Positions 17,490 through 19,478 of a DNA stretch of 33,985 bases are shown piece after piece; the stretch's first letter is position 1, and each line of letters begins with the position of its first letter. Position numbers and translations under genes: made by a program. Source of the DNA: an uncultured Ruminococcus sp. (GTDB taxonomy: Bacteria; Bacillota; Clostridia; Oscillospirales; Acutalibacteraceae); the NCBI GenBank assembly GCA_902796225.1, contig CADBOO010000059.1, positions 1-33,985 of the forward strand, written 5' to 3'. The notes under the pieces are model-generated. The model made no database searches. It was not told where the DNA came from and saw nothing but the letters and a program-made list of their open reading frames with translations.

Positions 17490-18773
17490 TCAGTCGAGCG
17501 CGGCAAACGCGCCGGAAAGATCTTCGAGGATGTCATCAATATGCTCCGTGCCGATCGACAGGCGGATCGTGTTCGGGCGGATACCCTGATCAAGCAATTC
17601 TTCGGTCGACAGCTGGGAGTGAGTGGTGGAGGCGGGATGGATCACAAGGCTCTTGACGTCCGCGACATTCGCGAGCAGAGAGAAGATCTTGAGATTGTCG
17701 ATGAACTTCCACGCTTCGTCCTGACCGCCCTTGATATCGAATGTAAAGATAGATGCGCCGCCGTTCGGGAAATACCGTTTGTACAACGCGTGATCGGGAT
17801 GATCCTCGAGCGCGGGGTGGTTGACCTTTTCGACAAGCGGATGATTGCTGAGGAATTCGACGACTTTCTTGGTGTTTTCTGCGTGACGCTCCAGTCTGAG
17901 CGACAGGGTCTCGACGCCCTGCAGCAGCAGGAACGCGTTGAACGGCGAGATTGCGGCGCCGGTATCGCGCAGCAGGATCGCGCGGATGTAGGTGACAAAG
18001 GCGGCCGCGCCGACTGCATCGTAGAAGGATACGCCGTGATAGCTGGGGTTCGCGTCGGCGATCTGGGGATACTTGCCGCCGGCTTTCCAGTTGAATTTAC
18101 CTGCTTCGACGATGACGCCGCCGAGGGTGGTTCCGTGGCCGCCGAGGAACTTGGTCGCCGAGTGGACGACGATGTCTGCGCCGTGTTCGATGGGACGGAT
18201 CAGGTAGGGAGTGCCGAAGGTGTTGTCGACGACGACCGGCAGACCGTGCTTGTGAGCGATCTCAGCGATCGCGTCGATATCCGGAATGTCGGAGTTCGGA
18301 TTGCCGAGCGTTTCGAGATAGACGGCGCGGGTGTTATCCTGTATCGCATTCTCGAGTTCTGTCAGATCGTGCGCGTCGACAAAGGTCGTGGTCACGCCGT
18401 ACTGCGGCAGGGTGTGGGAAAGCAGGTTATAGCTGCCGCCGTAGATGGTCTTCTGTGCGACGATGTGGCCGCCGTTCGCGGCAAGCGCTTCGATGGTATA
18501 GGTGATCGCCGCGGCGCCTGAGGCGACTGCCAGCGCGGCTGTACCGCCTTCCAGAGCAGCGACGCGTTTTTCCAGTACATCTTGTGTGGAATTGGTCAGT
18601 CTGCCGTAGATATTGCCTGCATCGGCAAGACCGAATCGGTCTGCGGCGTGCCGGGAGTTGCGGAATACATAGGATGTAGTCTGATAGATCGGGACGGCTC
18701 TGGAATCGGTAGCGGGATCGGGTTGTTCCTGACCGACGTGGATCTGTTTGGTTTCAAAACGATAATTACTCAT
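17490..18773 (-). CDS. metY: O-acetylhomoserine sulfhydrylase (PLP)
   Basis: A 427-residue Cys/Met-metabolism PLP enzyme of the MetY type, making homocysteine from O-acetylhomoserine and sulfide. Diagnostic blocks are the N-terminal [24 protein letters not shown], the PLP-contact [18 protein letters not shown] and the PLP lysine K208 in [11 protein letters not shown]. The length fits MetY (about 430) rather than MetB/MetC (about 380). The start follows aaagg. Three layers of control are visible upstream: an inverted-repeat operator shared with nifS, a 35-codon leader peptide, and an intrinsic terminator 48 bases before the start that can be replaced by an antiterminator. Confidence 0.93.
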
Positions 18774-18820: not shown

Positions 18821-18856
18821 CTAAAATAAAACGCCCGAAAGCGCAGGCTCCCGGGC
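18821..18856 (-). terminator. Attenuator terminator in the metY leader
   Basis: On the minus strand gcccgggagc / gctttcgggc forms a ten-pair stem (two G-T pairs) followed by gttttatttt, ending 48 bases before metY. Its 5' arm contains agcctgc (18843-18849), complementary to gcaggct at 18883-18889. It also contains gcccgggag (18848-18856), complementary to ctcccgggc inside the leader ORF (18939-18947). Either pairing would abolish the terminator. Confidence 0.8.
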
Positions 18857-18895
18857 AAAGAGGAAAAAGCATACTGTCATTCAGCCTGCAGTCTT

Positions 18896-19003
18896 TCAGA
18901 GCAGGGTGATACAGCCGAATGCTTCTGCCGTGCTATTCGCCCGGGAGTTGAACATTCGACACCACATCGCGGTATACTGCTTGCGGGTTGTGACAGTGAA
19001 CAT
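18896..19003 (-). CDS. 35-residue leader peptide of metY
   Basis: The ORF starts with ATG 9 bases after aaggag, right behind a perfect promoter, and stops 39 bases before the attenuator stem. It starts MFTVTTRKQY and contains the segment AMWCRM (residues 12-17), with two Met, one Cys and one Trp codon in five consecutive codons, and another Cys at 31. The stop codon lies six bases before the antiterminator element gcaggct. A ribosome that finishes would cover this element and let the terminator form; one stalled at the Met/Cys codons would leave it free. This layout implies control by sulfur amino acid supply. No similar known leader was recalled. Confidence 0.7.
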   Translation of the reverse strand: MFTVTTRKQYTAMWCRMFNSRANSTAEAFGCITLL

Positions 19004-19044: not shown

Positions 19045-19080
19045 ATTATAACACCACTTACCTACTATGTCAATAGGTAA
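19045..19080 (-). promoter_or_regulatory. metY promoter with inverted-repeat operator
   Basis: On the minus strand TTGACA (19068-19073), 17 bases, TATAAT (19045-19050): a full consensus promoter. The inverted repeat ttaccta-n9-taggtaa (19058-19080) covers the -35 box and half the spacer. The same element at the same place precedes nifS. The form suggests an Rrf2-family repressor (IscR- or CymR-like), which is not encoded in the window. Confidence 0.85.
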
Positions 19081-19097: not shown

Positions 19098-19478
19098 TTA
19101 CTGTGATTTTTTCTTGCGATAATCTTCAATCGCGGATTCGATTGCCTCCTGTGCGAGGACGGAGCAATGCATCTTATAAGCCGGCAGACCGTCCAGCGCT
19201 TCTGCTACCGCCTGATTCGTCAGCGTCAGCGCTTTGTCAACGGGCTGACCCTTGATCAGTTCGGTCGCCATGGAGCTTGATGCGATCGCACTCGCGCAGC
19301 CGAAGGTCTCGAACTTGACGTCTTCTATGATTTCGTCGTCGTTGATTTTCAGATACATCCGCATGATATCGCCGCATTTGGCGTTGCCGACCTCTCCGAC
19401 GCCGTCGGCGTCTTCGATCACGCCGATATTCTTCGGGTGGAGAAAGTATTCCATTACCTTATCGCTGTATAATGCCAT
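19098..19478 (-). CDS. nifU: IscU/NifU-type iron-sulfur scaffold
   Basis: A 126-residue scaffold on which Fe-S clusters are built. The three ligand cysteines are C35 in AKCGD, C61 in FGCASA and C105 in MHCSVL, with D37 following the first, as in the family. The start follows aggagg and lies 13 bases after the nifS stop, so both are co-transcribed. There is no Fd, HscA or HscB gene nearby, which is usual for the minimal two-gene system in Clostridia. Confidence 0.96.
   Translation of the reverse strand: MALYSDKVMEYFLHPKNIGVIEDADGVGEVGNAKCGDIMRMYLKINDDEIIEDVKFETFGCASAIASSSMATELIKGQPVDKALTLTNQAVAEALDGLPAYKMHCSVLAQEAIESAIEDYRKKKSQ

Follow-up and report, generated by a model that had tools for sequence, protein, structure and literature searches.

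Ribosome-mediated attenuation is classically represented by the trp, his and ilv leaders of enterobacteria, and the sulfur amino acid genes of Clostridia are usually said to be controlled by SAM riboswitches, T-boxes and Rrf2-type repressors. The available text of a 2010 survey states that, to its authors' knowledge, leader-peptide attenuation had not been demonstrated outside Proteobacteria and Actinobacteria except for ermC, and the survey itself adds a His leader in bacilli (PMC2965389); a leucine-rich attenuator of S. aureus ilv was, according to the accessible part of its report, described later (PMC5794164). For sulfur amino acids, the accessible description of the uORFC-8-2 motif places it before cysS of Rhodobacterales, with tandem Cys codons at about positions 14-15, a terminator and a proposed sensing of Cys-tRNA (PMC8632094). 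Leader ORFs with runs of Cys codons precede actinobacterial cys genes, as excerpted from PMC1262725, and the mycobacterial Cys-leader study is Canestrari 2020, as cited in the available portion of PMC13236596.

The stretch analysed here, referred to as the window, comprises 33,985 nucleotides from an uncultured Ruminococcus sp. and contains a metY gene preceded by a leader with a short ORF (uORF) and a terminator (Table 1). Sequence comparison and computation reveal a uORF family with a cluster of sulfur codons, a fixed spacing, a conserved pairing and a predicted structural flip. The metY leader is, with a probability of roughly 0.72, a transcription attenuator of the ribosome-mediated kind, one that would respond to the supply of the sulfur amino acids Met or Cys. 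As judged from the sequences collected, the design is common to many Clostridia and to several genes beyond the metY of the window.

Table 1. Features of the metY leader and its surroundings, in window coordinates.
Feature	Position	Strand	Remarks
metY, O-acetylhomoserine sulfhydrylase, controlled gene	17490..18773	(-)	scores 627 bits with TIGR01326 (cut-off 495)
Leader region	between nifU (19098-19478) and metY (17490-18773)	(-)	
Promoter	19045..19073	(-)	TTGACA 19073-19068, 17-nt spacer, TATAAT 19050-19045; direct reading
Inverted repeat TTACCTA-n9-TAGGTAA spanning the -35 box	19058..19080	(-)	candidate Rrf2/CymR-like operator
Shine-Dalgarno sequence of uORF, aaggaga	19017-19011	(-)	
Leader ORF (uORF), 35 aa	18896..19003	(-)	ATG 19003-19001, TGA stop 18898-18896
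Control region of uORF	18953..18967	(-)	codons ATG TGG TGT CGA ATG (M13-M17)
CGA-AUG	18958-18953	(-)	core common to whole uORF family
Antiterminator 5' arm CTCCCGGGC	18939..18947	(-)	inside uORF; +11 from C of CGA
Shared arm GCCCGGGAGC	18847..18856	(-)	antiterminator 3' arm and terminator 5' arm
Intrinsic terminator	18823..18856	(-)	arms 18856-18847 / 18842-18833, loop 18846-18843, T tract 18832-18823

Read on the minus strand, the uORF encodes MFTVTTRKQYTAMWCRMFNSRANSTAEAFGCITLL, with M13 W14 C15 R16 M17. The preliminary description had recognised the cluster of Met13, Trp14, Cys15 and Met17 as well as an intrinsic terminator ahead of metY, and both are confirmed; comparison with related leaders supports M13, C15 and the CGA-AUG pair (R16 M17) as the key codons, which corrects the earlier account of the cluster. 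That this cluster holds a single Cys and also a Trp weighs against a sulfur attenuator. The same description had proposed gcaggct (18889-18883) as an antiterminator arm. This segment does lie six bases past the uORF stop and is complementary to agcctgc, but agcctgc falls partly in the terminator loop, a post-stop GCAGGC occurs in 3 of 45 leaders of the window's class (type A, see below) and GCCTGC from the shared arm onwards in 1 of 45. Both halves are present together in one of the 45, that of the window alone, and we attribute the pairing to chance. The proposed layout for sulfur attenuation is nevertheless upheld with a different arm: a second segment, inside the ORF, had also been noticed to match the terminator arm, and it is this segment that constitutes the conserved antiterminator arm listed in Table 1. 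Compared with shuffled sequences, the window leader folds more stably (z -2.8; 1 of 200 shuffles as good).

No Rfam family reaches its gathering score in the leader, in keeping with the earlier remark that no known riboswitch was recognised, and a search of eight loci, the window's included, gave no Rfam match to E 0.5. Five leader peptides searched against NCBIfam at E up to 5 returned 0 families, peptides this short being hard for such models. The SAM riboswitch has 26 matches in 18 of 29 relatives; a by-eye comparison of coordinates places none of them beside a metY match, and of the 6 riboswitch loci read, 5 precede metK. In the incomplete genomes G000, to which the window belongs, and G004, the SAM riboswitch (RF00162) was not found; it is present in 16 of the 18 same-genus genomes searched, a set that includes the window's own.

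The inverted repeat that overlaps the promoter is a candidate Rrf2/CymR-like operator. Of the 179 metY upstream regions that contain TTGAC, 35 have 6 or more of the 7 arm pairs around it, as against 3 of 179 at random positions, and the window's genome has one Rrf2 gene above cut-off (G000:C24). One could hold that an Rrf2-type operator and an ordinary terminator alone matter and that the uORF is a chance ORF, the more so as a uORF of this family is missing from 91 of the 226 metY upstream regions, among them 40 of the 80 from named loci, a count that also weighs against attenuation. Set against the excess of CGAATG, its frame bias, the bias in CGA codons, the spacing and pairing of the arms and the crowding of Met and Cys codons, all documented below, this explanation is scarcely credible.

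Upstream regions of metY were collected from 137 loci and 89 stretches (226 in total, sampled unevenly, the nearest set contributing 30). Removal of near-duplicates and of very short regions left a non-redundant set of 212. CGAATG, read as Arg-Met, occurs in the last 300 nt of 133 of these 212, compared with 20.9 expected from a first-order Markov model. The most frequent 7-mer of the same regions is CGAATGT (96), the next cited being AAAGGAG (81). Of 140 CGAATG sites examined, 136 lie in an ORF that starts behind a Shine-Dalgarno sequence and is read in the CGA frame; for the two remaining frames the counts are 9 and 12. Translation of the uORF is predicted. Other Arg codons before ATG are found at only 9-15 sites each. 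The base after CGAATG is a pyrimidine in 140 of 143 rows, and CGATGT too lies mostly in the CGA frame (43 in frame versus 5 and 10; 54 sites). The prominence of the heptamer might suggest that CGAAUGU in the mRNA is a binding site for a protein or small RNA and that translation of the uORF is incidental. Such a binding site would not account for a hexamer confined to one frame of an SD-started ORF, nor for CGATGT mostly sharing that frame, and the type B peptides described below keep their amino acids while synonymous bases vary; we consider this explanation very improbable.

Conservation of the ORF across metY leaders, which had been named as a check, is borne out by a uORF family in 135 of 226 upstream regions and in 27 of 30 from the nearest set; by another division, a uORF precedes metY at 95 of 146 loci of the window's order and genus and at 40 of 80 named loci. 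The 135 uORFs fall into type A (46), type B (48) and others (41), some of the last with KRCC...RM. Type A, the window's kind, encodes M-C-C-R-M-x-x-S-R-A with a median length of 40 residues; R-C or R-C-C closes the peptide in 18 of the 46, and 17 of the 18 use CGA-UGU there. Type B encodes [LM][LV]RxNFRxGRM, mostly followed by stop, Cys or Trp, with a median of 21 residues. The rule for type A, Ser-Arg-[ATVD] soon after RM, conditions part of the antiterminator 5' arm (arm1) and its place, and leaves the shared arm (arm2) and the Met/Cys codons unconditioned; that for type B, N[FYC]R or GWR before RM, conditions those columns. A looser 'SR' rule, used for residue comparison and terminator search, gave 49 type A leaders.

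Genome searches with the two patterns extended the family. With one mismatch allowed, the type A pattern yields 18 matches in 18 of 295 genomes of the order, 6 of them exact, against 7 for the reversed control; two inexact matches (L197, L198) lie in other contexts, look like chance and were set aside. The only exact match in the window's own genome is the window site. In the 32 of 80 named loci whose genomes were searched, type A patterns give 29 matches in 23 genomes, a control pattern 1. The type B pattern has 47 matches in 45 of the 295 genomes of the order (reversed control 0) and occurs in 9 of 148 genomes of the class (control 1 match). One locus, L035 in G255, carries about 185 nt upstream of metY a type A leader with CGAAGG for CGAATG (Met to Arg) and both arms intact; it is either a degenerate sensor or a sequence error.

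In all 46 type A leaders, arm1, CTCCCGGGC, begins at a distance of 11 nt from the C of CGA; it is complementary to GCCCGGGAG, the terminator 5' arm. Paired cells between arm1 and arm2 amount to 98.4% (433 of 440, 44 rows, with L078 and L081 left out of the 46), and the pairing had likewise been named as something to be checked for conservation; 300 arm swaps between leaders gave a mean of 95.5 and a maximum of 96.8%. Two pairs show A-U in place of G-C, three show G-U or U-G, and there are a few mismatches at the end. The margin over swaps is small and the covariation modest because the arms vary little. Met or Cys occupies codons -3, -2 and -1 before CGA in 89, 67 and 85% of the 46 leaders, respectively, compared with 0-2% at codons -10 to -7. 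A terminator-like hairpin is present in 43 of the 49 leaders classed as type A by the looser rule, and type A leaders fold more stably than shuffles (mean z -2.1). The distance from the uORF stop to the shared arm ranges from 14 to 82 nt in 44 leaders. By eye, an inner hairpin GGGGCG:CGCCTC lies between the arms in many type A rows. A second pairing, ATGGC:GCCA(T), extends the antiterminator, with a duplex below -4 kcal/mol in 38 of 44 leaders.

The effect of a ribosome on this structure was modelled in the 44 type A leaders whose arm2 was recognised within the searched stretch: everything as far as the leading edge was deleted and what was left was folded. When the RNA is free from +11, 39 of 44 form the antiterminator; from +14, 11 form the antiterminator, 30 the terminator and 3 neither; from +17, the antiterminator is formed by 0 of 44 and the terminator by 42 of 44. 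The window leader flips from antiterminator to terminator between +14 and +17. According to folding, then, the position of the ribosome would select the leader structure, with the flip falling within two codons. Leading edges of +11 and +15 are both in conventional use; at +15, a ribosome held with AUG in its A site would tip the fold towards the terminator, and only M13-C15 would give the ON state. Folded without a ribosome, the window leader adopts the antiterminator, and therefore the OFF state needs a ribosome over the arm at the right moment. A weak 5-bp hairpin ahead of the T tract persists in the window's antiterminated fold. The uncertain leading edge, the fold adopted without a ribosome and this residual hairpin count against the attenuator reading. 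Before arm2 is synthesized, arm1 pairs locally with a mean probability of 0.53, which may help or hinder the switch.

These results suggest the following sequence of events. RNA polymerase would make a leader containing the 35-codon uORF. If charged Met- or Cys-tRNA runs low, translation would stall within Met-Trp-Cys-CGA-AUG, with the ribosome just upstream of CTCCCGGGC; the free arm would pair with GCCCGGGAG, the terminator would be blocked and metY transcribed. When the supply is good, the ribosome would advance and cover or open arm1 while arm2 emerges, so that the terminator would form and transcription stop. A ribosome waiting at the Met/Cys codons would leave the arm free and one two codons further on would not, which is the logic of a starvation-sensing attenuator. 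We infer the stall, whether Met or Cys or the two together are sensed, and the direction in which expression responds. Perhaps attenuation is sharpened by wobble pauses at CGA.

The choice of CGA is itself unusual. In the 135 uORFs, Arg before Cys is encoded by CGA in 44 of 61 cases, whereas before residues other than Met and Cys CGA accounts for 29 of 341 (Fisher 1.9e-25), and the bias before Cys holds both inside and outside type A. Arg before Met is CGA in 138 of 145 cases, but this column is conditioned on the CGAATG search, the Cys column being unconditioned. For comparison, in long frames (340 open frames of at least 250 codons from L058-L137, taken stop to stop on both strands, some of which are not genes), CGA accounts for 10% of the Arg codons that precede Met, 14% of those that precede Cys and 6% of those that precede any other residue; the 137 metY genes have 38 CGA among 1836 Arg codons followed by residues other than Met and Cys. 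The bias before Cys, relative to other residues, to the long frames and to the metY genes, thus indicates that CGA is placed before sulfur codons. The genome of the window has a tRNA-Arg with anticodon ACG, and anticodon TCG was found in none of the 14 (of 22) scanned stretches that yielded tRNA genes, an incomplete set. Inosine in tRNA-Arg is made by TadA, according to the available part of PMC8266599. CGA may sensitise the following codon in Clostridia. More tentatively, and at somewhat less than even odds, CGA would be an amplifier: the inosine-adenine wobble in the P site would tie translation of the next Met or Cys codon to its charged tRNA, and a single CGA-AUG or CGA-UGU pair would be the sulfur sensor that drives type A transcription attenuators and type B translation attenuators across the sulfur regulon.

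Type B and the other short leaders behave differently from type A. Terminators are found in 9 of 86 non-type-A leaders, and hence another mode of control is more likely there; their folds are little better than those of shuffles (mean z -0.6 for type B and -0.1 for the remainder), a point against the attenuator reading. In 76 non-type-A leaders, pairing of the segment from +6 to +18 is stronger with the downstream RNA of the same leader than with that of swapped partners (-6.74 versus -5.34 kcal/mol, sd of the swap means 0.14), and so is its pairing with the region of the ribosome-binding site (-4.59 versus -3.39, sd 0.19). The segment from +14 to +32 of the short leaders has no pairing excess (-5.00 versus -4.96 swapped). 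We also considered CGAAUG itself as a hairpin arm and rejected it, the first 9 nt giving -4.85 with own and -4.70 with swapped RNA (sd 0.06). In type B, a ribosome stalled at CGA-AUG would cover the +6 to +18 segment and could free the metY start site, which would turn expression on upon stalling. The type B stall may thus act on translation, on evidence weaker than that for type A.

The type B peptides also raise the question of an arrest peptide. SAM causes such an arrest at plant CGS1, and a nascent chain ending in Arg-Met, such as LLRANFRFGRM of type B, could halt the ribosome when SAM, Met or Cys is plentiful; in type A, the AUG would then be in the P site, the ribosome would cover the antiterminator arm and metY would be off, as agrees with the terminator found in 42 of 44 leaders when RNA is free from +17. 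The conservation of type B over about 10 residues (Arg at -7 and Gly at -1 each in 47 of 48), the free third positions at the codon before CGA (over all uORF rows, GGA 25, GGG 18, GGT 8 and GGC 2) and the 18 of 48 type B uORFs that lack a Cys codon speak in the same direction. The lack of Cys in these 18, of which 14 have one internal Met only, also weighs against sensing of Met/Cys supply. However, the residues ahead of RM vary by class while the CGA codon is fixed; an arrest dependent on the peptide only should tolerate the other Arg codons, so rare before ATG, and the run of Met/Cys codons in type A resembles hungry-codon attenuators. We therefore regard an arrest peptide as unlikely, and retain attenuation by Met/Cys supply as the preferred reading of the metY leader.

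Behind these leaders lie metY, MetQ/NlpA-type and sulfonate-type transporter genes, which favour a sulfur reading, and amino-acid transporter genes. Of the 47 type B matches in the order, 36 adjoin metY and 11 lie elsewhere (coordinates compared by eye); at class level 9 of 9 lead metY. MetQ/NlpA-type lipoproteins follow type B leaders at L183, L187, L190 and L191 by HMM and at L184-L186 by resemblance, and sulfonate/taurine-type transporters at L188, L192 and L193 by HMM and L189 by resemblance; the best Pfam matches of these transporter genes are above cut-offs and the NCBIfam matches below, and the substrate types are predicted. In the MetQ-type leader of L186, CGAATGTGA is repeated once, 28 nt further on. 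Eleven type A matches in the named-locus genomes were read: 4 lead metY and 7 lead other genes. These comprise MetQ-type proteins (L292, L311), family 3 amino-acid-binding proteins (L313 by HMM; L314 and L316 by resemblance) and a permease (L315, by resemblance). The seventh, L312, has a type A leader with terminator ahead of a gene whose 145 aa, all that precede the end of the stretch, show no Pfam match. Downstream of the type A leader in L313, a family 3 solute-binding domain and an NlpA/MetQ lipoprotein domain are fused in a single open frame (L313:692-1918); its product is perhaps a dual receptor. In three further genomes an amino-acid ABC transporter lies behind a type A leader (L194 by HMM; L195 and L196 by resemblance). 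For L194 the best NCBIfam match is the Lys/Arg/Orn-binding subfamily, with cystine-binding second, both below cut-off; cystine as the substrate of L194-L196 is a guess. The sulfur cargo of the amino-acid transporters behind some type A leaders is only putative, and this weighs against a sulfur reading.

Taken together, the leaders seem to represent a leader-peptide system that reads translation itself, in Clostridia, before metY and elsewhere in the class. With CGA placed ahead of Met and Cys codons, the family is a natural example on which codon-pair stalling as a bacterial metabolic sensor can be tested directly, and the uORF signature can help to annotate the transporters with which gut bacteria take up methionine and other amino acids. 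Our literature search found no published account of a CGA-AUG leader family; most subscription journals lie outside its coverage, so that an unpublished status is unproven.

Leader-peptide attenuation is itself classical, and the CGA-AUG family has the features of an attenuator that sequence and folding can test. As in the classical attenuators, the metY leader combines a short ORF containing codons for the end product with a terminator and an antiterminator that share one arm. Unlike them, its uORF runs well past the antiterminator arm and ends ahead of the shared arm, CGA-AUG stands at a fixed distance from the arm and two sulfur amino acids occur together. The SAM (S-box) riboswitch and the T-box of Firmicutes control the same pathway, whereas the metY leader has no Rfam match. 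The uORFC-8-2 motif, as far as its accessible description goes, is similar in joining a sulfur-codon uORF to a terminator, but belongs to Alphaproteobacteria and to a tRNA synthetase gene, and that description (PMC8632094) mentions neither a CGA-AUG core nor Met codons; the two are set apart by description rather than by sequence. The actinobacterial leaders, in the available parts of their reports, likewise have a leader ORF with Cys codons in front of sulfur genes, with Cys runs near the stop and, in mycobacteria, no conserved terminator hairpin. The metY leader, by contrast, sets Met and Cys codons together ahead of a terminator switch, and does so in Clostridia.
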